Shown here: in pieces, positions 18,556 to 52,996 of the stretch
How positions within the stretch are numbered: position 1 is the stretch's first letter
Layout: every line of letters begins with the position of its first letter
From: Physcia stellaris
Lineage: Eukaryota; Ascomycota; Lecanoromycetes; Caliciales; Physciaceae
DNA length: 64,000 nt
Reading direction: 5' to 3'
Assembly: GCA_018902385.1 (NCBI GenBank)
Contig: JABSSW010000009.1
Coordinates: 62,001 to 126,000, forward strand
Program-made: the position numbers and the translations under genes
The notes under the pieces: model-generated
Told to the model about the DNA's origin: nothing
What the model saw: the letters and a program-made list of their open reading frames with translations, nothing else
Database searches by the model: none

Positions 18556-19354
18556 ATGGCTGGAAATTCAACGACGACCGTGCCGTTGCGATATGATTTG
18601 GTCAAAGAAATCGAGAAGCTTCTCTCTATCTGGTCTAAACTCAAAGGCAACGACAAGCAGAATTGCAAGAAACTTATCGACAGCAAAATCCGCTTCCTAC
18701 AAGACTGCAGTCGCCCACGTTACGAGCCCACTTACGAGTTCATGGAGAGTGCTCTCAGCCTTAAGCATAAGCTCGTTGCTGCTAAGTTTGATCTCGGCTC
18801 CATCGAATCCGTAATCTCCAAGGAGATGAAAGACTTGATGAACAAGAATGGTCTTCAGTACTCCGGAGGCGCGGAGGTGAGGCTTTATACTTGGTCCCCT
18901 TTCTGCTTACACACTTTCTGACTTAAAATAGGATCCATTTGCAAATGCTCCACAATTCGAAGTTAAGGTCTTTATGAGCGCGTTTGTTACGGCGTCCTCA
19001 AGCCCAACGGTAACATATATGCTACGATACGAGGAAGAGGTCTGGGGGACAATACAGGGCTATTACCGGTATAGGCTATATCAGATTCAAGGGAATGTGA
19101 AGACGGATACTGGAGTGAGTATAAGCGGTAGGACTCTGAACAAAATATTGCGCAACCATTACGATCGAGAGGACCGCGTGCTCGTTTTTTACGAAAAGGA
19201 CGGAAGCATGACGCTCAGTCTGGAGATGTCGAGCGCTGAGCAAGCATGCGCTTTCGTCGAACATGCTGAAAGCAAGAATGCCTGGTTCCCGGGTGAGTAG
19301 AAAGCCTCAGACATCAATTCAAGCGGAAACTAAGGATTATTAGAAAACGCATGA
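18556..19354 (+). CDS. Cluster family gene 1 (type A: helical module + PH-like domain)
   Basis: Three exons: 18556-18876, 18932-19292 and 19344-19354, 230 residues. Exon 1 is a helical module: 'LLSIWSKLKGNDKQNCKKLI', then 'KHKLVAAKFDLGSIESVISK'. A phase-0 intron follows at once. Exon 2 encodes a beta-rich domain ending in an amphipathic helix ('SAEQACAFVEHAE'), the layout of a PH-like fold. A second intron close to the stop adds only 'ENA'. Gene 2 has the same order, intron phase and near-terminal intron, so they are paralogues. No signal peptide or membrane segment, so probably intracellular. I know no named family and infer no function beyond possible lipid or protein binding by the PH-like domain. 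Confidence 0.75.
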
Positions 19355-20218
19355 AAACCTCCTCTTGATGCGTTCAACGAGGAATCCGAGGAAAACATGT
19401 TTCCTATGTACTCTGTTGAAATGGATCAAGATGTCATCTTGCGGTAATGGGTCTTGGGCTGCAGTACTGAGAAAAACCGCTTGTAGCTCAACCATCCTTG
19501 AAACATGAAAAGGTAGCTGATGGATAGAATCACTTAGCCGAGTCACGATTTTATCCTCGTGCTGCTTATCCCACATGATTTCCGCTAGATCCATTAAAGG
19601 ACCTTGATCAGGCATTCAACCCCACTTGCAGGGCTGATCGTCCCACTTTAGCAAGGGAATCTCTTGACAGACAGCTGAACCTGTGCCTGCGCGCAGACCG
19701 AAGACACCCAATACCCGTACCTAAAGCTTCTGGATATGGGCTTAGGCATTCTACGCATTTCGACTGAGTCCTCAGGATCCTATTCCAATCAATTATGGAG
19801 TGGACGCCTGGACGAACATCGCAGTCGAGTTCCCCTTCTGTCATCACCAACGACCTTTCCTCCAGTCTAGGTAGTCAGTAAATAACACCTTCGGCGCCTT
19901 TGCCAAGCCATTTTGGTATTGACTGATCTGTTTCGCCTTGTGGCTTTTTATGTAGGCCTTGCATTTCTGATCTGTCAGCCATCAACATCGACTCGGCAGG
20001 TTCCGTTCCGCCCTCGCTTACTTTATATCCCGTGACACCGGGCCGTTAATTTCTCGCCTTGACACCAATTTCTGAATTGCCATAAACTCAGAGCAGGTCG
20101 TCAAATCTCTCCTTGGAATTGAGTACATCACTCAGCAAATCCCGCCTCGGCGGCATTCCATCAGTATTTCTAATACAGCTCAGCCCGCGGAATACTTCAG
20201 TATCCCAACACTTTCAAC
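19355..20218. other. Intergenic, no gene seen
   Basis: This holds the upstream region of family gene 2, with a TATATC-type AT element near 20,021. A 91-codon minus-strand frame at 19,340-19,615 has no support. Confidence 0.4.
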
Positions 20219-21086
20219 ATGACAGCGGAATCCTTCCAACGCGAAGGGATGGAGAGAGCGATGCTCCAGATCACGAAGATCCTCCCGCTGTGGGCGCGAT
20301 TGGAGGGCGACAATCAATACAACATCAAGCTTCTGATCGACCACAAAGTCGGAAGCCTCACTCGCGGGTTTCGGTATCCAAACCTCAGCCAATATGAGTT
20401 GTTGGACCGTTTGCTAGACTTTGAAGGGACAATCAAGGCTGCTGGGTTTGACACTGGGTCTGTAAAGGCTTTGATCGATGAAGGGGTCAAGAGTATCATG
20501 TTGATAAATGGGCTTCCGTACGTACACCAAGATGTCAGCAATGAGCTGGCAAGTGTCCAAGGAGAGGTTGAAGATAGGGATGTCGATAAGGTAATGTACT
20601 ACCCAAAATCCTTCAATAAGCGATGATTGGTACTAAGTAGTGCATAGGTCGAAGAGCAAGTACCTCAAGAATTCAGAGCTATCCGTGTGGAGTATGGCAA
20701 TGTAGTGGTACTCACACCACTAAAAAAGCAGCATGGTCGCGTGTACTTTGATGCAACCACGGGGCAATACCGACTCGAGATCTCGTACGACTGGAGTCGT
20801 GTGGGTCGTTGGTTAATGCTAGGTCCTGATACAGTGCACGCCTTCTTTCAAGATGCTGATTACCGCATGATTATTTTTATGCTCTCCAACAATCGGCCAT
20901 GGCTTTCACTCGAACTGGCAAGCAGCCAGGACGTCATCGCTTTCGTTGCAGCGTTTGAAGAGAAATATGTTGGGGCATTCCGGGTCTCCATGTCGTGAGT
21001 AGATGCTGATGAGGTCAGCCCTCAGAGAATTGCTGACTGCTTTTAGACCTTATACGAGAGTGAAGGCTTATTTCAAGAACACTTGA
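20219..21086 (+). CDS. Cluster family gene 2 (type A: helical module + PH-like domain)
   Basis: Three exons: 20219-20590, 20648-20994 and 21047-21086, 252 residues. The helical module reads 'KILPLWARLEGDNQYNIKLL', then 'GTIKAAGFDTGSVKALIDEG', aligning with gene 1 ('LLSIWSKLKGNDKQNCKKLI', 'KLVAAKFDLGSIESVISKEM'). A phase-0 intron separates it from a PH-like beta domain ending 'SSQDVIAFVAAFEEKY'. As in gene 1, an intron just before the stop adds a short tail (PYTRVKAYFKNT). All junctions are GT-AG with branch-like sites. The divergence is large, so the duplication is old. Function unknown; probably intracellular. Confidence 0.78.
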
Positions 21087-22077: not shown

Positions 22078-22695
22078 ATGTACACATCGGGGAACACAGA
22101 ATTTGAGGAGCACCTCACCAAGCTTGAGTACCTTGCAAAAACACGAGAACATTTAAAATTCGGCCCTGAGGGTGCCAACAATCCTATTCTCATGCAAGCT
22201 GTTGCATACAACATCAAGTCCCTATCGTACTATGTGAAAAGCCCTTTAAAAGACCACGTGGACCGCTTAGTCGACCTCAGTGTCGCCTTCGAAAACCCTT
22301 GTGGCACCAACAGTCGTTTCCTTACTTCCGAATCAACGACCGAATTTGACGCGATCATCGAGGCTCAGGTGAACGACCGAGCTGATAAGCTGAAGCGGTC
22401 CGGAGCCCGTATCCATCTACATGGCTGGTCCGCTCTACACGCCAAGATCCCCGCTCCATATGAGCGCGCTCGAAAGCAGATCGAGTCGATTATCACCGAT
22501 GAATTAAAGCGTGAAGAGACAGATGCTAAGAGCGAAGTTGATGAGCGTGAAGAGAGAGATGCTAAGAGCAAAGCTGATGTACGATGTGTTCTAGAAATGT
22601 GCGAGTGCCGTTAGCTAACCGGCTTGTAGTCTCTCCTCCGCAAAGAAGAAGAAGAAAGAGCTGCCGCCAAAAAAGTGGGCGTCAAACGTGCTTGA
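22078..22695 (+). CDS. Cluster family gene 3 (type B: helical protein, charged tail)
   Basis: Two exons, 22078-22578 and 22630-22695, joined by a 51-bp phase-0 intron with a GCTAAC branch; 188 residues. The N-terminus reads 'EFEEHLTKLEYLAKTREHLK', matching gene 6 ('LFDPLESLEKLAKTRKFM'). The middle has 'DHVDRLVDLSVAFENPCGTN' and 'EFDAIIEAQVNDRADKL', the type B core. A W-containing loop and a helix ('YERARKQIESIITDELK') follow. The end is highly charged: two copies of an E/R-D-A-K-S-(E/K)-(V/A)-D unit, then a short Lys/Glu-rich exon 2. There is no signal peptide. Function unknown. Confidence 0.7.
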
Positions 22696-26929: not shown

Positions 26930-27652
26930 ATGTCTTCAGTCGGCGTAATATCCAGAAGGAACTCAGCCTCATCATTCGCCGGAAGCGGCGCGCAGTACTC
27001 CAGGAGGAACTCAGCCTCATCATTCGCCGGAAGCGGCGCGCAATACTCCAGACCGGGTTCCGCAGCAAGCTTCTACTTCTCCAAAGACGACGAATTCGGC
27101 CACTGCGTCGAATCTCTCGCGCGCTACGTCCAGCTCCGCAAAGATCTCGCGCACACCACCCACGGCGCCAACGCCCCCGCCCTCATCGACACCATCGGGC
27201 TCAAGATAGCCTGCCTGGATCACTACGCCAAAGCGCGCGGCCCGGCCCGTGTGCAGACCGAGGAACTGGAGCAGTTGATCGAGCTCAGCAGTTCGCTGGC
27301 CGCGGGCCATGATTCGATGGGCGGCGTTCCGTACAAAGATATCAAAGGCCTGGATCAGTTCCTGGCCGATCAGATCCGCGCGCGGTGTCTGATTTATGAT
27401 GAAGAGGAAGGGGATCCTGAGTGGAAACTCAGAGTTTTTGAGCCCGTTGAGGGCTATAATGGGGAGCTCGTGCCCGTTGGCGGTTAAGGAGACGGATAAG
27501 GCTGTTATGAAGTATTTGGGGGATGCGAAGAAGGTTGTGAAGGCTGACCTTGAGGTATGGTTTTCCTGAAAACGGAGAGGGACTTGACTGATTGGTAATA
27601 GAAACTCCGGGCCGATTCCTCCTCCACTGCGAAGCCGAAAGGGAAGAAGTGA
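26930..27652 (+). CDS. Cluster family gene 4 (type B) with frame discrepancy
   Basis: Exon 1 starts at 26,930; exon 2 is 27602-27652 after a 47-bp phase-0 intron (27555-27601). The N-terminus is Ser/Arg-rich with a duplicated 16-residue block (S-RRNSASSFAGSGAQY). The type B core follows: 'CVESLARYVQLRKDLAHTT', 'ELEQLIELSSSLAAGHDSMG', 'KGLDQFLADQIRARCLIY', aligning with genes 3 and 5. The frame from the ATG stops at 27,485-27,487 (185 residues). A second good stretch ('VKETDKAVMKYLGDAKKVV', then 'KLRADSSSTAKPKGKK' in exon 2) matches the family C-terminus but lies one base out of frame. Either the gene is broken or truncated, a sequence error is present, or an unusual intron exists. Confidence 0.6.
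26952..27047 (+). repeat. 48-bp in-frame tandem duplication in family gene 4
   Basis: Two 48-bp units (26952-26999 and 27000-27047) are nearly identical and duplicate 16 residues without breaking frame. A few bases of a third unit follow. The near-identity says it is recent. Confidence 0.9.
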
Positions 27653-27895: not shown

Positions 27896-27900
27896 GCGTC
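27896..27900. repeat. Target-site duplication of outer Copia element, left
   Basis: GCGTC precedes the left LTR; the same five bases follow the right LTR at 39010-39014. Confidence 0.85.
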
Positions 27901-28054
27901 TGTTACAGGTATGTAGGGTGCAACGTGCTTATTATTCATGATAATACTATCTACCGTACATGTGATGAATGTGAATTATTGTACAAAGTTTGCACGCTAG
28001 CCTATAACAGAATAACGTTTTGACATTGTCTTTGATGATAAATTTATTTCAACA
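27901..28054 (-). repeat. Outer element LTR (3' LTR for the minus-strand element)
   Basis: It is 154 bp, begins TGTTACAG and ends TTTCAACA. It aligns base for base with 38856-39009; by eye all differences are C/T or G/A. Confidence 0.9.
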
Positions 28055-31000
28055 TTTTTTCTCGAATTTGCAAAAATATAAAATCATGATGTTTAATTCA
28101 TTTCGAACATGTCGATAAATCGTTGATATTTGAACGAAAATAAAAATTTGATGAAATCGTCGATTGACATGATGTCGATCGTTATATATTTGAATTCAAT
28201 GCGATTTTTTTTAATTTCGTTTTTTACATAATGATATACGATATCGACGTGCTTGATGCGATCATGATGTATCGAATTTTCATTGAATGTTTTGACGTTT
28301 TGATTGTCAATATTTATCAATATTTTGACGTAATTGTTCGATTGATTTTGAATTCGTAAATTAACGAATAATTGTCTGAATCAAATAATTTTTTTGACGA
28401 CGAATGAAATGATCATATATTCGACGACGCAAATAAACGTGATCACGATAAATTGAAATTTTGACATTCAATTTATCGAATCGTCGTTTAATAGAAACAA
28501 ATATGTTTCGATGAATTTTTGAAAATTTTGTCACGAACTCAATTTGCATCGCAATATGTTTCGATGTCTAATTTCTTGTTGAAATTATCGTCGTATACTA
28601 TAAAAAAATCGACGATGAAATTTAAATAAATTATAACACGCTTGACTGTTTTGATATGATTAAAATTGAAATTTTGAACAAATCGATTGATTATAAAAAT
28701 CGCATTCGTTACATTTGATTTAATTTTTATCATTGCAAACATGATTGAATTCATCATAATTTGATATTGTTTGATATTTTGATCGATGATCTGATTGCTA
28801 TTGAACAGTGAATCAAATGATTTTTTCATGAATGTTCGAATTGATTTCGCATTTTGTAAATCGAATTTCTTAACGACGCGTTGAATATATGCTTTTTGAT
28901 TAAAACGAATTATGTGCATTTCGCGATTTCTGAAAATGATCATATCAAAATAGAAATTTATTGATTCAAAATCAATCATATCGAAAACGTTATTGAATTT
29001 CGTTTTTGCTTTATTAGTCATGATTTTATTGAAAACAATGATTTTGATATTATCGACTCATGTAATAATGATAAAATTCTTGAAATCAGCATTCGTGACG
29101 AATATGTTTTGATTCGCGTCGAAAAAATTGAAAATTAATTTTTGTAAAAAAAATTCGAACAAACGTTTATATCATAGTTTGAATGATTGTTTCAAATCAT
29201 ACAATGTTTTGTTCAATTTGCAAATAATTTTGTCATTGTCACATTCAATCGAATATTTAACGTAAATATTTAAATCAATGAATTCGTATAAAAACGCAAT
29301 TTTCACGTTCATTTGTTCAATTTTCAAATTCAAAAAAACGATAACGACGAATAAAACTCGAAAAATCATTGATTTGACGACGAAAACAAAAATTTGATCA
29401 AAATCAATGTCGTATTGTTGTAAGAATTCTTTGACGCATTATTTAGTTTTGTATCGTATTATAACGTCATCGACATTGCGTTTGAATTTGTAAATTCATT
29501 TATCGTTCAACGATTTTCTTTCATCGAGCGTGAAATTTATTAGATTTCAAATGTGATTTTTCGATAAAAAATCGAATTCTTTTCTCATTGCTTTTAATCA
29601 TTGTGAAAAATGAAAATTTCGTGCGACGTCGTTGTAATTATTTGATTTTTTTCGTCGATCGTCAGCATTGTTATGAACTTTTTAAACGAAAAAATGTCGA
29701 TGTTTTCGACGTAATCGATCAACAATAAAACGAAATTGATCGTATTCAATTCAACGTCTGTAATTGAAATTGATTGAAAATCAACAATGTTGTCGAACAA
29801 AACAATTAAATCATTTGAATTTGAATTTCAATTCGCGAACAATTCACGCATTGCTAAATGAAACATCGTGAAACTGACAGAAATTATGACATTGTAAACG
29901 ATAAAATTCATAAAAAAATTTATTCGAATTGTCTTTTTGTTTGAGCGCATTGTAACGTACTTTTTGTAAAATTTTTTGAAAATTTTTTTGCTGTCATGAC
30001 GTCATTGATTTTTGTATGATAATATTTGAAAATTTGATTTTGATATATGATCGAATTTCAATGCTTTGAAAAATTTGAAATTGAATTTTTTGTTTTTTTG
30101 CAATGAATTCAATGTGAATAACAAAAAAATTTATCATTGTTGAATCAACAATTGATTCGATAAAATTTTTATCGAATTCGATGTCAATTTTTGATGTTGA
30201 TTTGTGATTATAAATATCGAAATTTTTGACGCATTCGATTTTTGACTAATCGATATGTAAATTCGATAAATGATGTCATCGTCATATTCGATGAAAATTT
30301 TTTTTTCGACGTTCGACTTCAAATAATTTTTGATTTTTTTGTTGATGACGACGTAAACGATTGATTCGAATGAATACATGTTCGTCAATTTCGAAAATTG
30401 TTCGTAAATATTTTCGAACGATGATTGATTTTTCAAATACGAAACTGAACGTCGATTTTTGATATACGTCATTGCATGTGAAATGTTTGATCACAAAAAT
30501 TCGATATGTTTTTCGTCAATAACGTTGTTTTGATCATGATAATGAGAATGCGTTGATATGCTTCGATTACATCATTGACGTTTTGAACATTTGTTGAAAT
30601 TAAATTGAATTCAATGTTTTGATTGTCAAAATAATTGATTGATTGCGTGTTGCGAAATTCGTTGTCATAATTTGTACGTACGATTTTGACGTTAACATCG
30701 AATTGACGTTTGATTCAATTGATGTATTTAATAAAACATTGTAATCATTCGTGTTTGTTTTTGACGATGTATATTTTCGTTCAACGTGATTTGTCATCGA
30801 TGATATTGATATAATAACGCTCATTTTTAAAATTTTCGATCGTTATTAATATTAAATCAATGTGAATAATATGAAACGTTTTTCAACATGATGAATATTT
30901 TTTTTATTCGATTTTTTTTTTTTTGCTTTGATTAATTTGCAAACATCGCAATGATTATTTTTGCAATCGTTTTGATAAAAATGATTCAATTTTTTTAAAT

Positions 31001-31262
31001 ATTGACGTAATAAAAAAAATTCATGTGATTCAAATTTCGATGTCATACGATGAACGACAATGATGATGTTGTTGACAATGCAATCATTTGATGTAATTGC
31101 AATTTCAAAACGTATAATTCGTTGTTTTGCAAAAAAACATATTCGATTGATTTGTTTTGATGTTTGAAAATGTGATTTTCAATGTTTCAATAAACGTTTT
31201 GTTTTTCGAATGTTGATATTGACAGCAAGTTTGTTGACGAGTTTGACATGTAAAAAATTGAC

Positions 31263-31267
31263 AAATC
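31263..31267. repeat. Target-site duplication of inner Copia element, left
   Basis: AAATC precedes the inner left LTR; the same bases follow the inner right LTR at 37124-37128. Confidence 0.85.
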
Positions 31268-31464
31268 TGTTGAAAAGTACGATGACAGAAAACTGAAGAA
31301 TAAACACGAATGTGATCAAAGATTTCTGATTGATCGACTAAGCGAGACGTGTCAAAATCGGTCATTATTAAAGACATCTGCGCAATCAAATTGTACTTAT
31401 TTCTGTACGTAATTTCGATAATATTGCATGCAATGCAATGACAGTCACTCACATTCGTTCAATA
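31268..31464 (+). repeat. Inner element 5' LTR
   Basis: 197 bp, beginning TGTTGAAAAG; it aligns along its full length with 36927-37123. Confidence 0.88.
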
Positions 31465-34400
31465 GATTATGAAATTCGGATTAGCATAAACTTTTGTGAC
31501 TGTCAGCGTCAATCGTTCGATCACGGAGTCACGAGGTCAAACAGTTGTGAAAAAAACTCATCGTTCGATCGCGTTAAAGCAATAGAAAGAATTTACACGA
31601 TTCGATCGACAGCTTCACGAGAAAACACACGGCAATAGAGAGAATTTACATTCGAATACATATTTACATATCACATCACGCATCATGAACGATTTCGAGA
31701 TCAGCAAATTCAACGCGCGTCGAGTTTGCGATATTCTTACTCGTCAGAATTGCGAGAAATGATTCAAGTTAATGAAGCAATGATTCATCGACGAAAAATC
31801 TGAATGATCGTCGACTCAGATTATGTGTCGAGATTGTTGTCGAATGATTTTCGAAAATCAAAATGAGATGTCGATTTGAGCTTTGATGAAAAAGAGACTG
31901 AAAAGAAGTTCGACGCAAAAGCACAATATCAACTCATCGAATGTATCGATGACGATGATCAAGAATTGATGACGAAACTGAAAACTGTCAAAAAGATTTG
32001 AAAAGTTTTTGTCAACAAATACAAACAAAAGTTTGCTACAATTGGACGACAATTGTTGCAAAAACTCATGAATTACAAAAAGTTTTCAAACGTGATCATT
32101 GAGATCGTTTATATCGATATCATCAAAAAAATCGCAAAGTTGCAAGCATGCAATCAGACATGACGAATTTGTTCAAATCAGAACGTCGTTTTCAGACACT
32201 TTTAGCATTTTTGTCTGTCGAATACGATGTCATTCGTGATGCAATCGACGCACAAAACAATCTCGATGTCGATAGATTTATTCAGAAGTTGCAAAAAAAA
32301 AAAAACACAACTCATTGCAAACAAGATCGTCGAATCGACATTGATAATCAAAAACAATCGTCGTCAATCTTATCGCATATTTCAACGACGATTTTTCAAT
32401 TTCGACGAAAGTTCTCGTCGTCTCAAGACTAAAGCGAAAAAAAAGACGAAATGTTTTTTTTGCGATGATTCACATCGAATCGCAAAATGTGATTTTCTGA
32501 AAAAATTAAGAAAATGAACGAAAAAACAGAAAATCAAAAGCTTTTACGCAAGAATAAAAGCACAAAGCGTACAACGTCGTCGATTTTTTTCGTTCAACAA
32601 CAATTCAAATTTCGACATCGACATCGATTCAGACAATGAAAAACACATGAAAAAAATCGTCGTTCTATTCAAAAAGCTGATCAATAAATTTCTCAAGTCT
32701 GTATGAATTGCAAATATCGATGTTTCGTCACACATGACTGACGATTTTCGATTCTTTAATGAATTTCTCAAATCGATTAAAAAGCGCACGATCAAAATCG
32801 GAAAAAAAAAATTGTACTCAAATCAATGTGATTCATGATGACGATGCGAATCAAAAATGATGAAAGCACGTTAACGGAAATGCTTTATGTATCTGATTTC
32901 GACGTCAATTTTCTATTCGGCAGACACTTTATCAAAAAAATTAATAAAAAATTTCAATGACGATAGTTTGTTCATGCGCAATAAGCAAAACGTTGAAGTA
33001 TTTCGAGCATTCGTTCAAGGAGATGTTTACATAGTAGACAAGATCACATCAGAATTTAAAAAATACGCATTGTTAGCGAGCAGCACGATGTTTGCAATTG
33101 AATTTCTTAAAATTTTGTCTGTTTCATTTGCAATGTCAACAATCGTGAATTCGAACGATATTTTGCTCGATGCAAATATTGACTCTCGAAATGATATCGA
33201 GATCGATTTTCAATCATCGGATGTTGATTCAAAGTATTGATTCAAATGTTGATTCAAGTATTGATGTTGATTCAAAATGCTGACCAAAAAAGACGTGATC
33301 TATACGAGTTATGACATCGACGTTTTGATCATATGAGATTTGCAAAATTTCGAAATTTGCACAAAGTCACAACTTTACGCAAGTCAATTTTCATCGTCGA
33401 GAATCGCAGCGATTCATGTAAGATATGTGCGATTACGAAGATGATTAATGCACATAATCGTCGTTTAATCGAACGCAAAACTCATATATTGAAACTGATG
33501 TCTATTGATATTTGCGAATTCTTATCTGCTTCAAAATTCGGCTACGAATACTTTCTAGAAATCGTGAATAATCACTCTCGACGAACGTGAATTCTATTTT
33601 TTCGCAAACGAGTCGATGCTTTTGAAGTCTTCAACAAATGAAAGTTGAAAATGAAACTAGAAATTCAACGAAAACTACAGACAATACGTTGTGACAACGT
33701 CAAAGAACTGAAATTTATACTCGATTTTTGATGCGAATTTATCGGCATTGTTTCACAGTACATCGTTCCGTACAATTTCATTCAGAACGACGTAATAGAG
33801 CGTGTCATAAGAACGTCCGAAAATCAAATTCGAGCAATGATTCAAGACGCAAAACTGCTCATAAAATTTTGATTTGAAGCAAAAAGACAAATGCATACGT
33901 TCGCAATCGTATGAACACGAAATCAATAATCGACGACAATTCAACAAGTTCTATTGAAGTTTGAACAAATATTAAGTCGTCGATAGATCACATACGCGTT
34001 TGAGAATGCAAATGTTACTCGTTCGTCGATACTAAATCATTGTTTGAGAAAAATAGAAAAAACAAATTCGTCAATACAGAGAAATCAGATGTGTTTATGA
34101 ATTATGACGAAAACATCACGATTCAATACAAAATATGAACTTTCGATCGTCGTGATGTCATCAAGCATCACAAAATAGTGTTTTTTGAGCATGAAAAATG
34201 AAAAAACGAATCATTGAATCTGTTCACGATTACGATGAACGAATTATCTGAAAAACGATCTGTCGAAAAATCACGCAAAATAACTTCTGCATTTGCAATC
34301 GCTTCGATGACATCGACGTTTACATCAGTTTTTGCTGCATCAGTTTCTGCGAAATTCTCGATTTCTGTTGCGTCTATGATTTCGAAAAACGAGAAAAAAA

Positions 34401-36926
34401 TCCAGCCAATGCACATGAAAAAGAACGATGAATTCATCGATACATCAAATGAAAAAAATGAAATCAACGAATTTACGACGAAATCAACAGTTCAAACGCG
34501 TGCTAAATTAAGCATTTTCACGAAATTTTCACGCATGATGCAACAATTTCTCCACGTGACAATTTCTAAGCGTAAGCGAGATACTACGGACGAGAAAAAG
34601 CGAAATGAAGCATCGCAACAAGATTGCACGCGTCATGATGACACTTCTGATCGAGAATTTTTGATACGTGCGAAGCACGATGAGTGAACTCTGTTCGCAA
34701 CAACAAAAAATACAAATCGACAATTCGTTGAAAAGTTGATCATATCTGTGTCGAAAACTATCAGAAGACTGTCAATGATTTCATTTGAAATAAATTTTGA
34801 CTCGAGATTATTCAAGTCGAATTGACGACGTTAATAGCTAATGAGATTTGAAACGTCGTTATTTCATCGAAGAACGTCAATATCGTCATCAGTAAATGAG
34901 TATTCAAGATCAAAATGCATGTGGATGATACGTTGAACAAGTTGAAGATCAAACTCGTTGCAAAAAATTTCTCACAAATATATGAAATAGATTATACAGA
35001 TATTTTTGTTTCAACTGTTAAATTCGATACTTTTCGTTTGTTTCTCGTCATCGTCGCGTTGAAAAATTTCGAATGTCATCAAATGAACGTCAACAATGCT
35101 TTCACGAAATCATTCTTAAAAGAAGTAATTTACATGAAATCGCCACTCGACGTGAATTTATTTTTCGGACAAGCACTTCTGATTCGTCGGAGTCTTTATG
35201 GATTGAAGCAAACAACTAGAGATTGACACGAGCGTTGCGTAAAAAAATTGCACAAATTGAGTTTCGAACAGACTTCGACTGATTCATGTATGCTTCGTCA
35301 TAAAAAACGAGAAATCATACTATTTTTTTACGTGAATGACATTTCTGTTGTCGTCAAATTCAACGAGCAAATCAACTGATTCAAAAATGAGTTTAAGAAG
35401 ATATTCAAAGTCAAAAATCTGAGAGAAATGCAGAAGATTTTTGACATTAAAATCACTCGCGATCGTAAAAGACGAATTATTCGATTGAATCAGACTCATT
35501 ATTTGAGCGAAATATTGGATGAGTTGCATATGAACATCGATAAGCACAAACGTACGAAATTATTCATTTGAACGATTACGATTCATTCAGATCAGCTGAA
35601 TCGGACGACGAGCGAATTGATTCAAAAAATTATCAACACAAAATTGAAAAGCTCATGTATGTTGTCATACACACTCGTTCAAATATCGTTTTCGCATTAA
35701 AACGATTAAGTCAATATCTCAATGACTTTGCGAAACATCATGACAGAACAATGAAGATTTTGCTTCGTTACATTCGATCGATTATCGATTTAAATTTTGT
35801 ATACGACTTGAGACTGAACAACAGTGAAAGTCTCAGAGTCAAAACTTATTCGAATTCTGACTACGCAGTCGATAAACTGAACAAAAAATCGATTTTCGAA
35901 TACGTTTATATGTTCGCTGAAAAATCAATATCATGAATGAATCGTAAGCAGAAATCGGTCGCTATCTCAATCACTGAAGCCGAGTACATGGCTTTATCGA
36001 CATGCGTTAAAGAAAAATTATGAATAACACAGCTTTTTCGGGATTTGAATCTCATCAAATATCTCGAAATCGAATTAAATCAGATAGCAATCATCCAGAA
36101 CGATAAGCATGAAATCTGTTCATCAATGCAATTCTTGAAAAATAATCAAATCGCTAATTTGTTGATCAAAGACGCACATATTCATGAACGATCAAAACAC
36201 ATTGATGTGATTTATCACAACATCAGAAATTTGCATCAAAAAAATTTGATTCAATTGAATTACGTTTCAAGTGCAGACATGATAATCGATGATTTGACTA
36301 AATCGTTGTCAAGAAATAAGTTCAAAAAGTTCGTGAAGCAGTTGAAATTGAAAAAATCGAAAATCAATTAGATTTTTCTCAATTGTCAAAACTGTTTTTT
36401 TCATACTAAGATGCTGATGATTGAATCGTACACATTTGACGAGTTATGATCGAAAACAGAAACTCGTTGATCGTGCTCAGATTCGAATTGCATGATGATT
36501 CAAAATGATTTTCTTTGAAGTCGTTCGAGTCTAATTTTTTGACTAGAAAAAATCAGTGTTTTTCTCATCAATGATCAAGAAAGTTCGAACTTAGTGAAAG
36601 TTACGTCATTTCTTTCATTCTGAAGCGATGATGGCTCGATTGTACGAATCTGACAAGTTATGATTGAAAACATGAGCTCGTTGATCGTGCTCAGACTGAA
36701 GTTGAATAATGATTCAGAATGATTTTCTTCGAGATCATTCGAACTCGATTTTCTGATCTGAGAAATTCAATGTTTCTTTCATCAATGATTAAGAAAACTC
36801 GAGCTTAGTGAAAGCTACGTCGATGCAAAAATCAGCAATCAATAAAAACCACATCAGTGTAAGAATCAGAGTTCAGTGAAAGTCGCATTTAAATGTGCAA
36901 TGAACATGATTGTCATCGAGTGAAAA

Positions 36927-37123
36927 TGTTGAAAAGTACGATGACAAAAGACTGAAAGATAGACACGAATGTGATCAAAGACTTCTGATTGATCGATTAA
37001 GCGAGACGTGTCAAGATCGATCACTACTAGAGACATCTGCGCAATCAAATTGTACTTACTTCTGTACGTAACTTCGGTAGTATTGCATGTAATGCAATGG
37101 CAGTCACTCACATTCGTTCAATA
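36927..37123 (+). repeat. Inner element 3' LTR
   Basis: 197 bp, the partner of 31268-31464 and the same length. Confidence 0.88.
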
Positions 37124-37128
37124 AAATC
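37124..37128. repeat. Target-site duplication of inner Copia element, right
   Basis: AAATC, matching 31263-31267. Confidence 0.85.
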
Positions 37129-38855
37129 AATGAATTGATCATTTGCATTGTTGTAAAAAAAACGAACAATAATTTGATTATTTTTTCTTTTCAACAATGA
37201 AGCGAGCTTTGTTTGCAACTACAACATGTTCAGTGTGAAACATGAAAAAATGTATGAAATTTCGATTTTTGCACACGTGAATGTTGACGTTCGAATTTGT
37301 GTATCACAACATATCGTTGACTGAATGACTAATGAACAAAGTTTGTTTTCATGATTCAATCAACGACGTTGATTGTTATTGAAAATTTTGAATTTTTTCA
37401 GAATTTTGTCGTATGAATAATCAAACATGTTTTTGTCAATTCATTTTTTGAAAACGCTTTTTGAATGATTATAATAGCATTTTTCAAAATCATGTTTGAT
37501 GAGATCGTTGTTTATGCATTTCTGATTGATGCAAAAAAATCGATGTATTCAAATCTTGATGTGTTGAAACGAATACGTTTAAATTTTTCGAAACGATCAA
37601 CGATCAATGCAATTGAGTTTGATTTTGTTATCGTATCGATGATGACTTTAACGAAATTCAAAAGAAAAATTCTCGTTTCGATGAGATTTGTGTTTTCGAA
37701 AATTCATTCGTCACGTTGACGAATCACGAAATAATTGAAATGAATTAATTTGTGCATTTTGAACAACAAGATATTTTGACAAAATACGTTGACGATGAGT
37801 TTCGAATCAACGTTTTCGATGATCAATTGATTGTGTAATGATTCAACGACTTTGATGTAAAACTCGACGCTCGCTAAGATAACAAATCGATCAATGAGAT
37901 CGAAAATGATATCGACGAGAAAAACGAAAGTATTCTTTTTGAAGCGTTTTGCTATCTTTGTTCAATAGATCAATGATGTTGAATTCGTTATGACAGTGAT
38001 AAAGAAGCGATGATTGGCGTTCATTGCATTGAACAAATAAAAAAAAATTTTATTCAGATTTCGTTCGTGTTTCTCGACGACGATGATGAGATTCGTGAAC
38101 TTGACTTTCGCTTTTGCATCGATGAGATTTCAGTCGATATTTTTGTTGTATAAAAATTCGACGATAAACATTGATTTTATTGATAAATTGATTGTTCATT
38201 CAACATGATTGACTCGAAAATCGTTTTTGACGTCGATTTCTCAATTGAAATACTGTTTTGACTTTGAAATGAAAACGACAAAACTGTGAATGATGTTTGA
38301 CGTAATCATTGTGATGTTTGAGTTTGAAAATTTGAATCGTATAAATGAAAAAAAAAAAAAAATAAAACGTATGTGACTCGTGAAATCGTGTAAAACGTGT
38401 AAATTTCATGTCGTATTTGTTTTTTTTTTCATTTCGTAGCAGATGAGTTCGAAACATCGATTCGAAACAATGACGAATTCATTGAGTCATCGAATCGTGT
38501 ATGTGAAATTTCGTGTTTTTTGAAAACGTTTTCATCGAAATCGAATGATCGATCGTGCGTTCGAATTTGACGTTCGTTTGAACGATGAATGACGTTTTCA
38601 TCGATCGACGTCGATGTTGATTTTTGAATTTTTGAAAAATTAAATGACGATCGTTAAAGTAAACAATATGCATTTTATTGACGACATTAAATGACGATAA
38701 ACTCGTTGTGAATTCAACTTAATGTTTTCGAGTTTGATCGTCGTTTAGTCAATCAGAAATTTTTCGATCGACGCATTTAAATCAACGTTTCAACGTTGTA
38801 AAATAATATGAATCGATTCGAATGATATTTGACAAACATTGTCGAATTCATAATT

Positions 38856-39009
38856 TGTTACAGATATGTAAAGTGCAACGTGTTTATTATTCATGATAAT
38901 ACTATCTATCGTACATGTGATGGATGTGAATTATTGTACAGAATTTGCACGCTAGCCTATAACAGAATAACGCCTTGGCATTGCCTTTGGTGGTGAGTTT
39001 ACTCCAACA
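38856..39009 (-). repeat. Outer element LTR (5' LTR for the minus-strand element)
   Basis: 154 bp, partner of 27901-28054. Its last 60 bp keep more C and G than the other copy. Confidence 0.9.
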
Positions 39010-39014
39010 GCGTC
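39010..39014. repeat. Target-site duplication of outer Copia element, right
   Basis: GCGTC, matching 27896-27900. Confidence 0.85.
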
Positions 39015-39598: not shown

Positions 39599-40304
39599 AT
39601 GGCCTCGGTAGGTTTCACGAGCACAGTGTGATAGTTTTCATCGCTCATTATACTGACGTCCTCTACCACAGACACTCTACAGCAACTTGAAAGCGCTCCA
39701 GCGACTCACTCCAATCCGCGAATCCATGTCCGCCATTTCAGCATCCCCAAACTTCCTGGAAAGCCAAGCCATGAGACTGAACATTCTCATCACACTGTAC
39801 CTCGACCTCATCACCGGTCTACCAGCTCACGAACAATTCCCGCGCTACGACCCGATGGAGCTGGGCGTCTTGGTCAAAATCAGCAGAAGCCTAGGAACCC
39901 CTTACGGCAGCTACTTCCCAGCGTTTCAGTACGAAAAGCTGGCGGGTCTGGATAGCATCATGGAAAGGAAGGTGCAACAATGGTGCTTCTTGCTGGAAGC
40001 TCGTCAAGATCCTCCGACTCTGGAATACGTGATGGGGTTGAGGGTGGATGTGGATGAAAGTTTTGTGAAGACTGTGGGGCAGATCAATAGGTTTATTGTT
40101 ACGGCTCTGAATCAGGAGCAGGAGGTTGCTGGCGAGCTTCGAAAGGTATTTGAGCTGTTGTTCGTTGTGGCTGGGTTACTGACGCTGGTATAGGAGATGC
40201 TGGCGCATAGAGATGTTGATGACAGCTTTTGCATCCAGCTGGGTGGAGAGTATGACGTTATGAATACTGCATGGGACGCACCCAAAGAGGCGAAGAAATT
40301 CTAG
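39599..40304 (+). CDS. Cluster family gene 5 (type B, 9-nt first exon)
   Basis: Three exons: 39599-39607, 39672-40145 and 40194-40304, 197 residues. Exon 1 codes only for Met-Ala-Ser; exon 2 opens 'TLYSNLKALQRLTPIRESMS'. The type B core is clear: 'ELGVLVKISRSLGTPYGSYF' and 'AGLDSIMERKVQQWCFLLEA' align with gene 4 ('ELEQLIELSSSLAAGHDSMG', 'KGLDQFLADQIRARCLIYDE'). A helix 'SFVKTVGQINRFIVTALNQE' ends the module, followed by a phase-0 intron and a tail ending PKEAKKF. The ATG is chosen because the mini-exon splices in frame and gene 6 has the same design. No signal peptide or membrane helix. Function unknown. Confidence 0.75.
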
Positions 40305-41075: not shown

Positions 41076-41716
41076 ATGAGCGTAGTGAGTTCTCATTGGT
41101 TGCTCCCACTGGCTTTCTCTTCTGTTGGGTGTTAATGTGATGAGGTTAACCTTGACTATCAGAATCAATCCGACCCTCTTTTCGATCCCCTCGAGAGCCT
41201 GGAGAAGCTCGCCAAAACCCGAAAGTTCATGTGCAGCCTCAAGAACGATGAACTGGAATTCCTCAACCGCAACGAACCTACTGAGCTATGTCTGGAAGCA
41301 CTCTTCACTGTGGTGAAAGCACAAGCCTCACTCCTCTACAGCCGCGTGACCACCAATGAGAAAATAATCACCGAAGAGATTCTCCTTCAGATTGTTAATG
41401 TTGGCAGAGACTTGAATACAATTCTTCCATATGATAGATACCATAGTTACACCCCGGCTGTTAAGACGCTGGACAAGGTTCTGTTTCACTTGTTCTCCAC
41501 ATCGACGATCAAACTCACCAACGATGAAGCGATTGGGATGCAACACTGGTCGGCTTGGAGGGCTAGTCTACCACGCGATTGTGAAAAGGCTACCGGTCAG
41601 TTGGACAAGCTTATCATAGCTGAATTGAAGACATTAAGGGCCAAGCCCGAGTCCTCCTACGACGTAAGCGACCACGGCCATCGTCCACTCAAACTCGGCT
41701 AACCTTTCTATAGTGA
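41076..41716 (+). CDS. Cluster family gene 6 (type B, 9-nt first exon)
   Basis: Three exons: 41076-41084, 41163-41663 and 41714-41716, 170 residues. Exon 1 codes for Met-Ser-Val only, as in gene 5. Exon 2 reads 'DPLFDPLESLEKLAKTRKFM', matching gene 3 'TEFEEHLTKLEYLAKTREHL'. Later 'ILLQIVNVGRDLNTILPYDR' and 'AVKTLDKVLFHLFSTSTIKL' follow the type B core, and 'LDKLIIAELKTLRAK' is like gene 3's last helix. The final intron (GTAAGC donor, GCTAAC branch) puts a TGA straight after the splice, so the charged tail of other members is absent; a slightly later acceptor would add two residues. Function unknown. Confidence 0.72.
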
Positions 41717-42896
41717 TGATGAGAGTGCTTGACATACCTCCAGGCGACGACACCGGCGGGTGACTGTCACGATCAAAGTATGTTATGGAGATCTGTCGGA
41801 GGCCAAAGCTGCTGTTGTCACCATTAAAAGTCTTATTGTTGAATGCGGCAGAAGAGTCAGTATTTGAGGCCACATAGAATGCATTTTTCTAATGAATAAA
41901 TTAAAAACTGAGGGTTATTACCTGCTTTACATACTATACCTACTCCCTGCCTGCTACTGCCCAACTTTTAGGTGACTTAGGGCTTCTCTTCGCTTGCCAG
42001 ATCACATGATCGACTAGCAACCAGTGACATTCATGAAGCCCAAATCTCTTTGCTTCTGGATCGGCATGTTTGTAACCAAACACGCTCCATCACAAGCGAT
42101 CGAGTAAAGCTAATCAAGATTGATGGCGATTGTCTTGTTGGGGACGCCGATTATCCTGGTCCTTGTCTCTTTCTAAATACGGAAACAATCAGCTACGACC
42201 TCAGCGAGAGAAATAATCATGGAGATTATACTTACCGAACATTTCGGACGCCGCTGTATGAACTCAAGAGTGCACCCTCGTCATGACCTATTGCGCTGAC
42301 TTGTAGCGTCGAATTGAAAGGGTGGATTCACACTTACACATAAGGTAGGTAGCAAAAAGAACGTTGAGGGTATGATCGTGAAGAATGAGCAGACTGCGGG
42401 AAGACTTTGGAGTCGGACACCATTTCTCGGGCTCCTGAGGGAGAAAGTGAAAGGGTAAGAAGAGGGGAAGACAAAGGCGTCCCAACGAACCTGGACAAGT
42501 AAGTAAAAGGACAGATGTACTCTACCAGCGGAGTGACTAGCACTGGGTTCTAAGCAGAGAGCCCCAGTCCGGTGGTATCTCCCGCCGCAAGAACTAGCCA
42601 CGAAATGTGTTAAGCTGAAGAAGTACCCGATAAGGTGATCTTCTCATTCGCGAATCAACCGAAAACCTATTTGCATCGAAGACCACCTAGTTCTCAAGAA
42701 GATGTCTACAAGATATGGAGAACGACATTACATGGCTCTCCCAGTCCATCAGCCCATAAGTGCCGTCGGCACAACTTCCAAGCATACTCGCTATCCCTCA
42801 AGGTACTCAACTCACTCCCCGTCCTTGAACCCCACAAACTGACGAAACTAACTCAGTATCCCACCCGAAGACCAACCGAGCTTGCTATCACCCGTA
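41717..42896. other. Intergenic, no gene supported
   Basis: About 1.2 kb. A possible leader exon for family gene 7 (ATG at about 42,731, donor GTACTC, ACTAAC branch, CAG acceptor near 42,855) can be drawn, but it leads into the wrong frame for the helical module. Confidence 0.4.
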
Positions 42897-43790
42897 ATGC
42901 CCACCTCCGCACCCCCTCGTCAGCGCTCCCCTTCCTTCCCCACCCACGACCAAATCCTAACATCAATCCCCACCGCCACCCCCGGTTCGCCGAAATCACC
43001 TACACCAACCCCATCGACCGCCTCCTCGACGCCATCACCAATTTCGAGCTCAGCATCGAGATCCGCGACCGCTTGACACATGCCGAACTGACTACTTTCG
43101 ACAAGCTTTTCGTGGCCAAAGCGAAAGAGCTGGGGGCGTCCGGTGTTGAGGGGTCGTATAGCCAGCAGCTGCAGGCGTTGAAGCGGTTGACCAAGGCCAG
43201 AGCGCATTTGAGGGGAGATTGTCCGGGCGTGGTGGAGGATTTGGATGCGATTGTTGGAAGGCTGCTAGGTATGCTAGGGGGAGAGGAGGGTGATGTCGTG
43301 AGTTTTTGGGTCCTTTTTCCACTCTTGTGGCGGTTAGCTTACAGTATTGCAGCAAGCTTCGAATGGAAGTCTGAAGCGAGGGCCACAACAAATTGTTTCA
43401 CACCCTCGTCCTTCTGTGGCAGCTAGTATCACCAGCAGTACCAGTACCCGGACATCCTCCGACAAGATCCAGCTATCCAGCATTTCCACGGATTTGAACC
43501 ATCTCCGCCGGTCCGCTGGCCATAAGCTCTACCTGCGATTGAACGATAAAGAGGGTTATCTGGAGATTAAAGGCATCAACTCGAAACTTACTGCTGAGAT
43601 TGGCGATAAGAAGATTGCTTGTGCCGAGATCAAGTCCTTGGGTGACATCTCGGACAGGGAGATCAGCATAGGGATAAGAGACGGCGGTGAGGTCGTGCTT
43701 GAGCTGCGGGATGAGAAAGATGCGGAGGCTTTGATTCAGTGGCTTGAGGCGATTAGTGGCGTTACTGCCTATACGGCTCGCTGCTACTAA
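42897..43790 (+). CDS. Cluster family gene 7 (type A: helical module + PH-like domain), N-terminus unresolved
   Basis: Two supported exons end at 43,297 and run 43,353-43,790, with a 55-bp phase-0 intron. The helical module reads 'NPIDRLLDAITNFELSIEIR', 'DKLFVAKAKELGASGVEGSY' and 'RAHLRGDCPGVVEDLDAIVG'. Exon 2 has a Ser-rich linker then a PH-like domain ('GHKLYLRLNDKEGYLEIKG' to 'DEKDAEALIQWLEAISG'). The ATG at 42,897 opens a plausible Ser/Pro-rich N-terminus ('MPTSAPPRQRSPSFPTHDQ') but in another frame; the module's own frame has no ATG back to about 42,635. The 5' end is an unseen exon, a sequence error or a frameshift. The start given is provisional. Confidence 0.55.
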
Positions 43791-44242: not shown

Positions 44243-44821
44243 CTATAAAAAAAGCCGTATCCCAGTTTTGAATCCGGCTTGAGGTGACTCTTTACTAAGT
44301 ATTACCTATACCAAGTGAGAAATAGCACATTGTAGAAACAAGCGAAGCACATCACTTACTTCCAGCTGTCCCTCCGTCTCGTTGCTGAGCTTCCTCACAA
44401 GGTATGGAAGGCACTCGCCCCAGAGTCTCTCGTCCACGTTCCAGCTTGGTAGCCGCTCAAGTTCCTTTTTCGAATCCACCAGCAGTAGGAGCCTGTCAAA
44501 AAGCTGGCTTTTCTCTTTGGAGGAGGATGTTTTAACTCCACGGATGCAATCTTGGAGGATCTCGTCTAGGATGGATCTTGCAGATTGATCTATAGGCTCC
44601 GAGTTTACGCGTAGCTCTACAAGTTGATGCAGTTGTTTGACTTGGAGCGGGAAGGCATCGTCGTGCTTGGGAACGCATAGCTTTAGACAAATGAACTTCA
44701 ATTTAATAAATCTGTCGTAACCTTGGGTACCAGATAGGGCGTCCCAGTTTTCAACTAGCTTTCCAACTTCTGTTAGAGTTTTATCGAACAGCTCGGATGT
44801 GGTTGCTATGTTGGATGTCAT
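44243..44821 (-). CDS. Cluster family gene 8 (type A-like helical protein)
   Basis: Two exons on the minus strand, 44821-44360 and 44305-44243, with a 54-bp phase-0 intron with a strong GTAAGT donor; 174 residues. The N-terminus 'LTEVGKLVENWDALSGTQGY' parallels gene 1 'LVKEIEKLLSIWSKLKGNDK', and 'LHQLVELRVNSEPIDQSARS' with 'ILDEILQDC' follows the same helical plan. Unlike genes 1, 2 and 7 there is no PH-like domain after the intron, only a 21-residue tail. It is the only family member on the minus strand here. Without the splice the frame would run 17 codons further and stop. Function unknown. Confidence 0.65.
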
Positions 44822-46634: not shown

Positions 46635-48807
46635 ATGACCTCCTCGGCGGGGTCCAACGTGTTCGCTCTCACCGCAATTCTCGCCATCTGTACCCTGGTT
46701 CTTCTACTACTGCGCCATTTCCTACCACTGCGCTCCACGCCAGCCTACCTACTCGTGCCTATTTTCCTTGCTCTCGCCTTACCTATCAGTACCATACTTC
46801 TCGTACCGATAGATCTCGCTTCAAGCTCAAGGAACAAGGATGATGCCACAAGGGGGATTTGGCTTCCTCAGAGCGTCGTCTTGGTCGCGTGGCGCATAAT
46901 ATACTGGTTGACGTTTGCCTTGACGTGGTGGGCAAATCCCTCACAGACGTCTTAGACGAGGCTAATCTTGTGACACCAGGTTCATTCTGCCTCTACTCGG
47001 CGAGTACCTCGACTCTGGCTACCGGACTCCCAGGGACCGTCTCATATATTCCCTACGTTCCAATGGTCGCTACCAGCTGATTGCGCTAGCGTGTGGAACT
47101 GCCGGTCTCGTCTATATCCTTCTGCAGAATGGCTTCAAGGGGACTTCGGTCAAAGCTCTTATCATGGCGTATGTTGATGCTATAACGGCTAGGAAGCTAG
47201 GGCTAATGGCAGCTAGACTTGCATATTGCTGGGGCCTAATCTTTGCGATTTACCTCATGGGTCATGGACTGGTGGCAATACCACGGAGACTTATACGGAA
47301 TGCAAATACCAGCGGGCGACTTCGACGGCTTCAGGCGAACGCTCCTAAAGTTCACGATCGGCTGACAACCTCAATCGCCGAGCTTGAGGATTTGGAGGCA
47401 CAGGTCACTCTCTTGAGACAGCGGAAGAACGGTATATCTAGAGATCACCAAGAATGGATTGAAGAGCTGGCCGACATGTCGGATCTGCCGGAGGCACGGT
47501 ACCTGTCAAACGCACCGTACTCAGCTGGTGCTACAGTACCAGCTGTCATTACTGATCGATACCTTGCAGAATTATCAAGGAAGCTCAACCGGGCCAGGCA
47601 CAAGCGGATACGCTTCGTTGATGCTTGGGACCGGCTGGTCAGGAAGGCCTACGAGCTACAAGCAATACTAGATGCATCTACTACCAAGCGGCTGGATTTC
47701 GGAAAACCTTCACCGCATGCTTCCGTCTTGGAAAGGCTAACTTTGCTGACACCTTACACCCGCTACATGCTCTATGCGAAGATAATACCGGCGATAAGGC
47801 TCGCTCATGCCGTTGTTTTTGCTTTGGCTTCCGTCTTCGTCGTGTGGTCAGAATTGATCAAGTTCGCTGCTCCAAAGCTATCTGTGATCAGCCTTACGGT
47901 TGTTACACATCGTGGAGATGATAGCGAGGTTACTTTCGCCGGTCAGCTTATTGCATCTCTTTGGCTCCTCTACATGTGTAGTGCGGCATTGGCAAGCTTC
48001 GACGACGTAAAGGTTTGGGGCAATCGTGCTCTCGTTCGCAGAAATACATACGGTGAAAGTGCTGCGTGGTACTCTGGCCAGATAGCCAAACTGACCGTTC
48101 CACTCGCTTATAATTTTGTTACATTCCTTCCGGGCGGGATACATAAAGAGACAACATTCTACCATTTTCTTGGCAGCCTGATCAACCTGACGCCTCTTGG
48201 AAAGGGATTCGATTATTTCTTTCCAATGTTCATCCTCCTGCCCGTCTGCGCCGCTCTCTTCAACATATATGGACGAGTCAAGAACATCTTTAGCTTTGGT
48301 TTGATCGAGGATGATGACGAGGAGACCCCACCTGGCTTCGGAGGTGGAGGATGGCGTGAAGGCCGCGAACTCATTGAGCGCGAATTGAATGGGTCGTCAC
48401 AGCTGGGTCTGACTGCTCGCCGCGACGGGGTAGTGTCACCTCGAGCTTCGGGTCACAGTACACCTACAGGTACCGGAGGCCGACGGAGTCAGCTAGCAGC
48501 AACCCCCTCTGCAGGGCGGCCAGAACCTGTTCGCTCAAACACTGGCGAGCGGCAAGCGCAACGGCTTGCAGACGCGACAAGGGCTGCAGAAGAGGAAGAT
48601 GAAAACATCTTCCAGGGGTTTGCACACCGAGTACGGAACACCTTTGATACTGTTGAACGGCCGGAATGGCTTTCAGATCTTGGCAAGAGACCAAAATGGA
48701 TGGGAGGAGTGGACGGCTTAAATGAAAATAGTGGTCGGGCGGAGTCCGGGCGAGGGATAGGTAGATGGTTTGGAGGCCGACCTGCGGACGGAAGAGTCAG
48801 GTTGTAG
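46635..48807 (+). CDS. LMBR1-like multipass membrane protein
   Basis: Three exons: 46635-46927, 46980-47168 and 47217-48807, 690 residues. Hydrophobic helices begin at the N-terminus ('NVFALTAILAICTLVLLLL', 'YLLVPIFLALALPISTILLV'). The family's 'YRTPRDRLIYSLRSNGRYQL' loop follows in exon 2. A charged coiled-coil loop (about residues 205-265: 'LTTSIAELEDLEAQVTLLRQ') comes between membrane blocks, with more helices to about residue 540. The C-terminal 150 residues are Gly/Arg/Glu-rich and cytosolic-looking. LMBR1-domain proteins include the lipocalin receptor and lysosomal cobalamin exporter LMBD1; the role of the fungal branch is unclear. It sits between family genes but looks like a conserved unrelated gene. 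Confidence 0.82.
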
Positions 48808-51577: not shown

Positions 51578-52189
51578 GAACCTTGGAGGTAGGCTTGCTA
51601 CTCGTGTTTCGTGGATAGGTGGGGAACTGAGTACGAGTACATACATGTCTCTTCTTCCACCTAAATACTTCAAGCGTGTTGCACTTTGAGCGATCGAAGG
51701 ATTGTGTTTTTGAGCATTCAAGCCCGGTTCCTGCAGGGCCCCTTTTCTACGACGAAATGATCATTGAACCCTTTGAGCTGGTTGGTTCCATGTGTATCTA
51801 AAATTATTCCCACTTTATATTGTACCTTTTCAACAACTGCTGCAGACCCTTCCGCGAGTTTGCCTTGATTGTTCCAGGTCTGTAAACCAGGTTTCTCGCT
51901 GGCGGACTATTACTTCTCACAGGCGATAAGGGATGAAATCATACTAACGACCCCTGATTGCTTCTTCAACAAAGAGCATATTTGTCTCCTGCAGGGTATC
52001 CGCAGACCTTTTAACTGACGAGTCTCTAGGAAACAATATCAATGAAAACCTTTAAGACATATAACCCTCAGAAATCCATCAGTCCAGCCAGATCCCTCCA
52101 AGTCAACCAGAAAGATCTCATTACCCAGACCTAGACTTACATCACCCTCTACAAGTCCACAGATATCTCCAAAACAAAAATAAGAAGCC
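51578..52189. other. Intergenic, promoter of family gene 9
   Basis: No gene is seen. An AT element CATATAACC near 52,060 lies about 130 bp before the ATG of family gene 9. Confidence 0.4.
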
Positions 52190-52996
52190 ATGGACCCCAC
52201 CGCGAACACCTTCGAAGCAGCCCTCTCCTCCCTCGCAGCGCTAACCGCGCTCCAACCACATCTGACAGGCGCCTCCCACCTCCTCAAACCCACGAAAAAG
52301 CTTATCGAGGAGAAAATCACCACACTAGCCAGAAGCCCCTCCCACACCACCAAACACCTCCCCCGCCTAGCGAAAATCCGCGGCGAGCTGCACCGGTGCA
52401 ATATATCCACCGCACAAGTGGACGCGCTCATCGACGCGCAATTGCGACCTCGTTCTGGGGTGGATGGGGCTGGATATCTAGCGTTGCTGGAGACTAGGCG
52501 TGTTCTTGCGAGCGAGGCACTTGGTTTCGAGTTCTCGAGGCTTGATGCGCTTATTGGTGATGTTGCGGAGCAGCTGCGTGATGATGAGGTGGTGGTGAAT
52601 CAGGTAGGATCTTTACCGCGTCGTCTCGGACGAGGGTATGTATAGTGTCGTTTGACTGATTGAGCGCGCACTACCCTAGATTCCGAGATCCGGGGAAAGG
52701 AAATCGTGGAGACGCCGCAGCCGAAAGCCAGCCAGGGCAGGGGAGAGACGGAGACGGAGAAGGGGGAAGAGGTGAGTTGGTCTGTCCAAAAAAGGGGTGA
52801 GATGGTAGGCTGATGATTTGTGGGATAGGCTTCTGGGATGGAGGTGATGAGTGATGTTGCTCCTGAGCAGGGGCCTGAGGGATCGGAGGAGGAGATGGAT
52901 TACGGTGATGAGGTCACGACTACTCCGATTCAGCCTCGCCGGTTGAGCTTGACGCTTTCTTCGCCGCATGAGAATCGAGGTGGGCGGCATGGATGA
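52190..52996 (+). CDS. Cluster family gene 9 (type A-like helical protein, acidic tail)
   Basis: Three exons: 52190-52603, 52688-52771 and 52829-52996, 221 residues, all introns phase 0. The helical module: 'FEAALSSLAALTALQPHLTG', 'KPTKKLIEEKITTLARSPSH', then 'KIRGELHRCNISTAQVDALI'. It matches gene 2 ('LLIDHKVGSLTRG', 'GTIKAAGFDTGSVKALIDEG'). After the family's phase-0 intron there is a disordered acidic part ('EEEMDYGDEVTTT') instead of a PH-like domain. The second exon's acceptor was placed at 52,687 because the nearer AG at 52,680 would break the frame. Strong codon bias and GC-rich coding resemble gene 4. Function unknown; it is the family member furthest from the Copia island. Confidence 0.65.

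Follow-up and report, generated by a model that had tools for sequence, protein, structure and literature searches.

A local family of strongly diverged genes in Physcia stellaris, with a predicted helical-bundle exon joined to several kinds of tail

We report a local, strongly diverged gene family in Physcia stellaris, located in a 64,000-nucleotide stretch of DNA (the window, bases 62001-126000 of contig C9, in a genome of 44 Mb in 147 contigs). Judged from sequence comparison, the family is real, and it is better founded for seven genes than for nine; the tandem array counts seven paralogues, with G8 as a probable and G7 as a possible further member. We propose, with roughly one chance in two of being right, that these genes encode small, adaptor-like and probably cytosolic proteins in which one kind of bundle exon is combined with several kinds of tail. 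The gene models, named G1 to G9, are as follows.

G1, 18556..19300 (+): helical exon 18556-18876, phase-0 intron 18877-18931, tail exon 18932-19300, perhaps PH-like; 229 amino acids (aa)
G2, 20219..20998 (+): helical exon 20219-20590, phase-0 intron 20591-20647, tail exon 20648-20998, predicted with low confidence to be PH-like; 240 aa
G3, 22078..22695 (+): helical exon 22078-22578, phase-0 intron 22579-22629, charged tail 22630-22695; 188 aa
G4, 26930..27652 (+): helical exon 26930-27433, then 27489-27554 and 27602-27652; 206 aa
G5, 39599..40304 (+): three-codon exon 39599-39607, helical exon 39672-40145, tail 40194-40304; 197 aa
G6, 41076..41716 (+): three-codon exon 41076-41084, helical exon 41163-41663, stop codon immediately 3' of the phase-0 intron; 170 aa
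G7, 42702..43790 (+): 5' exon 42702-42802, helical exon 42871-43297, tail exon 43353-43790; 321 aa, kinship unproven by sequence
G8, 44243..44821 (-): helical exon 44360-44821, phase-0 intron 44306-44359, short tail 44243-44305; 174 aa
G9, 52190..52996 (+): helical exon 52190-52603, phase-0 intron, acidic tail exons 52700-52771 and 52829-52996; 217 aa

A phase-0 intron lies straight 3' of the helical module in all nine models, as a preliminary description of this DNA had claimed, and the motifs quoted in that description are present where it placed them. Its size range of about 170-250 aa holds for eight models but not for G7. It had not noted that the neighbours G5 and G6 have in common a three-codon first exon with a phase-0 intron, nor that a 5' exon and a phase-2 intron precede the helical exon of G7; this 5' exon is needed because the helical frame of G7 lacks an ATG. 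The donor of the first intron of G4 is non-canonical (GTTTTT), and the homologous downstream piece lies in the +1 frame; since this donor is poor, a frameshift in G4 is possible. In codon usage, the modelled frame scored above both shifted frames in 9/9 models. The second codon position was the most conserved in 6/6 pairs compared (0.55-0.62 vs 0.26-0.39 at the third position), a pattern that fits proteins under selection for a hydrophobic core and is the one to be expected of them.

Repeats were observed within the coding sequence of two genes. The N-terminus of G4 (window positions 26943-27052) contains a 48-nt tandem repeat in 2.3 copies, encoding RRNSASSF twice, a motif that we take to resemble a basophilic kinase site. 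In G3, a 36-nt repeat occurs twice (22508-22579) where the helical exon ends, just 5' of the phase-0 intron, and extends the charged end.

An all-against-all comparison, which the preliminary description had suggested, was run. In local alignments, 8/36 pairs were never equalled by any of 300 shuffles. Seven of these (G1-G2, G1-G8, G2-G9, G3-G4, G3-G6, G3-G7 and G4-G5) had a z-score of at least 5.6, and the eighth, G4-G6, reached z 3.9. The G1-G8 alignment (z 6.0) runs from the start codon on, and the G2-G9 alignment likewise keeps register from close to the start codon. A null of reversed modules (81 comparisons), which preserves helix periodicity, was beaten in every comparison by six of the 36 pairs: G1-G2, G3-G6, G3-G4, G4-G5, G1-G8 and G2-G9. 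Two pairs were lost under this null, G3-G7 (1/81) and G4-G6 (3/81). In the six pairs for which codon positions were compared, the aligned parts are 24-34% identical. In phmmer searches against a background of 1,800 shuffles, G1-G2 was the one plain match (E 5.5e-14), and G3-G6, G3-G4, G4-G5 and G2-G9 were top yet weak matches; the G9 query used here, and in the search of the flanks described below, had its tail spliced otherwise than in the final model. A pair taken as unrelated, the PH region of an Ulp2-like gene and the G1 module, gave z 3.3, and therefore no z below 5 was taken as evidence.

Profile comparisons were carried out with the type A and type B groupings of the preliminary description, type B being G3, G4, G5 and G6. 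With leave-one-out type-B profiles, each omitted gene scored above all 3,484 background open reading frames (ORFs), with E values of 4.3e-5 for G3, 0.0096 for G4, 0.14 for G5 and 7.3e-8 for G6. In searches with profiles of all genes minus one, the omitted gene ranked directly below the members for G1, G3, G4, G5, G6 and G8, but not for G2 (rank 58), G7 (rank 12) and G9 (rank 49). As a further control, 165 ORFs of at least 150 aa from 256 kb of the same contig were scored singly. Neither column shuffles (150 or 200) nor any of these ORFs reached the scores of G4 or G5 against type B, or of G9 against type A or type B. G8 was borderline against type A (1/150 shuffles, 1/165 ORFs), while G7 gave 0/150 shuffles and 3/165 ORFs against type B, and 2/150 and 6/165 against type A. 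The claim of nine diverged paralogues thus stands for G1, G2, G9 and G3 to G6, is borderline for G8 and stays unproven for G7, the membership of which rests on place and layout.

Types A and B are probably one superfamily. When the two profiles were aligned with hhalign, their first two helices kept register across 43 columns and the score was 24.2, against a column-shuffle mean of 10.7 (0/200 as high), and this score was reached against type B by 0/165 ORFs of the same contig. With roles exchanged, the score was 18.75 (0/200), near the largest shuffle at 18.23. Reversed profiles gave 13.9 and 12.0. The alternative alignments A2/A3 yielded a weaker score of 19.5 (E 0.028) and were out of step. 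G9 fits both types, with 0/150 shuffles and 0/165 ORFs for each.

These controls also bear on the possibility that the genes are unrelated short helical ORFs, alike only as helices are alike, which we regard as improbable. It would account for the failure of the G7 links, and partly of those of G8, under the same-contig ORF control, for the z-score of 3.3 in the unrelated pair, for the all-minus-one profiles that miss G2, G7 and G9, and for a weak tree. However, the reversed, shuffled and same-contig controls all stay below the scores linking the seven core genes, and the common phase-0 joint and the three-codon first exon of G5 and G6 also speak against it.

Structure prediction, a check that the preliminary description had proposed, was run on G2 and G3. 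The AlphaFold2 model of G2 contains a fair four-helix bundle over residues 11-100, with a predicted local distance difference test (pLDDT) score of 66-89 per ten-residue block. The G3 model is poor (six helices, mean pLDDT 59), but its helix order is similar to that of G2. Type B apparently has one more helical hairpin, the third. Internal alpha-hairpin repeats were considered and dropped, with 1/10 segment pairs at 0.002 and the rest at 0.02 or worse; self-comparison was at shuffle level in 7/9 genes, with G2 at 3/100 and G8 at 4/100.

The tail exons of G1 and G2, and perhaps of G7, may have a PH-like layout, a low-confidence prediction that is absent from the preliminary description. The modelled G2 tail consists of seven strands followed by a C-terminal helix, as in the PH superfold, the nearest profile being PF25424 (PH_35, a PH domain of fungal deubiquitinating enzymes). 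In a Foldseek search with the G2 model, PH-superfold chains (Ran-binding domain, PH and EVH1) made up 6 of the best 50 of 356 weak matches, for which the aligned range is not given. PH_35 was the top Pfam match for two of the three tails, namely G7 (E 0.0022, 18.4 bits) and G2 (E 0.3, 11.5 bits), whereas the cut-off is 28 bits; it was not listed for the G1 tail. The G1 and G2 tails match each other with z 6.6 (0/300 shuffles) and with phmmer E values of 0.02 and 0.098. One PH_35 domain over the cut-off was found in the genome, on contig C76 (L030), where it precedes what we take to be an Ulp2-type protease domain, so that the gene is presumably Ulp2-like. Derivation of the tail from this Ulp2-like gene is unsupported, as no pairwise match was found.

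No transmembrane-like stretch is present in the nine models, the largest 19-residue hydropathy mean being 1.25. As a crude indicator of a signal peptide, N-terminal hydropathy (largest 10-residue mean) was 1.83 in G9 and at most 1.26 in the other eight, so that the N-termini are mostly not hydrophobic.

In the adaptor-like reading, the helical exon would fold as an up-and-down four-helix bundle. The phase-0 intron would link this bundle exon to a PH-like tail (G1, G2 and perhaps G7), a charged tail (G3, G4 and G9) or a short end (G5, G6 and G8). The bundle may bind a protein partner, the tail may set location or provide a second contact, and the copies may have diverged in partner. In favour of this reading are the kinship under controls, the phase-0 joint of all nine models, the conservation of the second codon position, the G2 bundle, the weak PH matches of the tails and the lack of a transmembrane-like stretch.

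Several observations weigh against this reading. The gene models are predictions from sequence; in two of the nine genes (G6 and G8) the antisense frame beats the sense codon usage, and the G8 score is negative. Most single genes fail the cross-type ORF test (G3 against A 2/165, G1 against B 12/165, G8 against B 14/165), and the tree has no strong fork (72/81 for A versus B, 87/86 for G1 with G2). The tail of the G2 model has a pLDDT of 32-71 per block, and none of the listed Foldseek matches of G2 has an E value of 0.001 or less. The G7 tail has no match to the tails of G1 and G2 (z 0.2 and 0.8; 9/150 shuffles), and the C76 PH_35 domain has no pairwise match to any of the three tails. Gene order, the intron phase in the models, the kinship of seven genes and the predicted G2 bundle come directly from the analysis; the PH-like fold, the cell location and the adaptor role are inferred.

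The bundle may also resemble the N-terminal Habc domain of syntaxins (Sso1/Sso2, Vam3, Vti1), an up-and-down helical bundle of about 80-100 residues that is among the top structural matches of the G2 and G3 models. By analogy, the proteins might be Habc-like regulators of membrane fusion, the PH-like tail docking on the bundle as the Sec3 PH domain docks on the four-helix bundle of Sso2 (PMC5267525). The nine models differ from syntaxins and other SNAREs in that none of them shows a C-terminal transmembrane anchor, and we consider this role quite unlikely; the resemblance to Habc and the Sec3/Sso2 docking are a lead, no more. An extension of the same analogy would have novel, lineage-restricted module pairs, in which a Habc-like bundle exon is joined in phase 0 to a PH-like domain able to dock on the bundle of the same protein or of a paralogue, so that neighbouring genes would form an exchangeable set steering membrane fusion or hyphal contact. 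We hold this to be decidedly improbable.

A four-helix bundle at the N-terminus, as in the G2 model, would also suit membrane-killing proteins of the HeLo/MLKL type with a new sequence, and fungal HeLo, HeLo-like and SesA proteins likewise have a small N-terminal helical module. This is very improbable, however. No HeLo, HeLo-like or SesA match was found in Pfam up to E 10 with ten queries (most matches above 0.1 being filtered), and no NLR domain was found in the nearby ORFs that were scanned. The mostly non-hydrophobic N-termini also argue against it, and MLKL (4btf) appears in the Foldseek list at just E 1.8 with a probability of 0.04.

The ten Pfam queries covered the family except for the short tails of G3, G4, G5, G8 and G9 and the 5' exon of G7, and up to E 10 no family query exceeded a cut-off. 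A match of G1 to TcdB_N (E 0.067) was dropped because a reversed control reaches the same level (best E of 0.085 among six). PHROGs gave four families, one member each, the best at 0.0016 being unnamed, and NCBIfam gave GroES at 0.1. Five family queries, compared by sequence with the PDB, returned nothing below E 0.09, and a viral fold library returned nothing with an E value of 0.001 or less for the G2 model. No prokaryotic or viral relatives were confirmed for G2 exon 1 and G6 (one protein each). In the literature searches made, no description was recognised as this gene family. A diverged, helical family in one local cluster, unnamed in the libraries searched (Pfam, PHROGs, NCBIfam and the PDB, no fungal protein database among them), is supported for seven genes, and probably eight.

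Within the genome itself, ten protein queries (the G7 helical exon not among them) revealed no other locus beyond a 21-residue, chance-level match on contig C38 (E 0.235). The first step of this search was crude, the G3 query listing neither G6 nor G4. A type-B consensus query recovered all four type-B genes. No further members were found in 192 kb of flanks or among short ORFs of the window.

The array is interrupted between G4 and G5 by two nested elements.

Outer long terminal repeat (LTR) retrotransposon, 27901..39009: LTRs 27901-28054 and 38856-39009 (154 nt), with the 5-bp duplication GCGTC at 27896-27900 and 39010-39014
Inner nested LTR element, 31268..37123: LTRs 31268-31464 and 36927-37123 (197 nt), with AAATC on either side

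The array and the transposon island described earlier are thus both present, but the island is a separate insertion that does not belong to the family, and its removal would make neighbours of G4 and G5. The two LTRs are 88% alike in one element and 91% in the other, whereas G4 and G5 are about 24% identical at the protein level where aligned, from which the insertion would be younger than the divergence of the genes. Since a single element sits between two genes of just 24% identity in their aligned parts, the association of island and array looks coincidental. It is extremely improbable that the repeat island drove the amplification or that the genes are tamed transposon genes, as its position in the middle of the array might suggest. 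Against this stand the single element with its target duplication and a second element nested in it, the likeness of the LTRs next to that of the two genes parted, and the sole Pfam match of four island ORFs, RVT_2 (E 1.6e-05, under its cut-off). The matching fragment (28539-29054, -) is presumably copia-type. The island (27896-39014) has a GC content of about 0.27-0.34. In each LTR pair, 18/18 differences are transitions, which may be a trace of repeat-induced point mutation.

The preliminary description had also reported a TATA box about 130 bp upstream of some genes, and TATAWAD was indeed found at -138 (G1), -125 (G4) and -132 (G6), that is, in 3/9 genes; the pattern was picked after that report was read, and its expectation is 0.0235 per 110-bp stretch outside the island. 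TATA boxes are frequent in inducible genes. Together with the strong divergence between neighbours (24-34% identity in six aligned pairs), they fit the earlier proposal of a role in self/non-self recognition or in stress or environmental response, with local copies under diversifying selection. Old duplicates, however, would present the same pattern without such a role. At a Pfam E of 0.01 or less, no NLR, HET or HeLo domain was found in 20 non-family ORFs of the window, nor in 10 of the 13 ORFs of at least 220 aa within about 40 kb outside it, smaller flanking ORFs not being scanned. We find no evidence for such a role, and consider it unlikely.

Genes with known domains were recognised in and around the array.

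14386-17651: Sls1-like gene
24664-26007: class-III aminotransferase, an open frame without intron between G3 and G4, with 4-aminobutyrate transaminases as best PDB matches
46470-48804: LMBR1-like gene

A fungal rhodopsin domain was also present among the window ORFs (Pfam); with the introns and the repeat island, it suggests a filamentous ascomycete. Beyond G9, an ORF at 54637-55188 (-) has weak leucine-rich repeat matches (E 8.7e-06, under the cut-off). A tRNA gene at 2143-2226 (Rfam, 56.9 bits) was assigned an odd, four-base anticodon (agta) by ARAGORN and perhaps bears an intron. Just left of the window, an ORF at L016:355-1107 carries at its end the first part of a patatin-like phospholipase domain (E 1.4e-06).

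Taxon-restricted genes are well known to occur in local arrays. In the present array, a modular layout is visible, in which a kindred helical exon is followed by a phase-0 joint and by several kinds of tail, predicted to be PH-like in some. If related species share this layout, the array would be a compact case of new intracellular binding proteins arising and dividing work among themselves.

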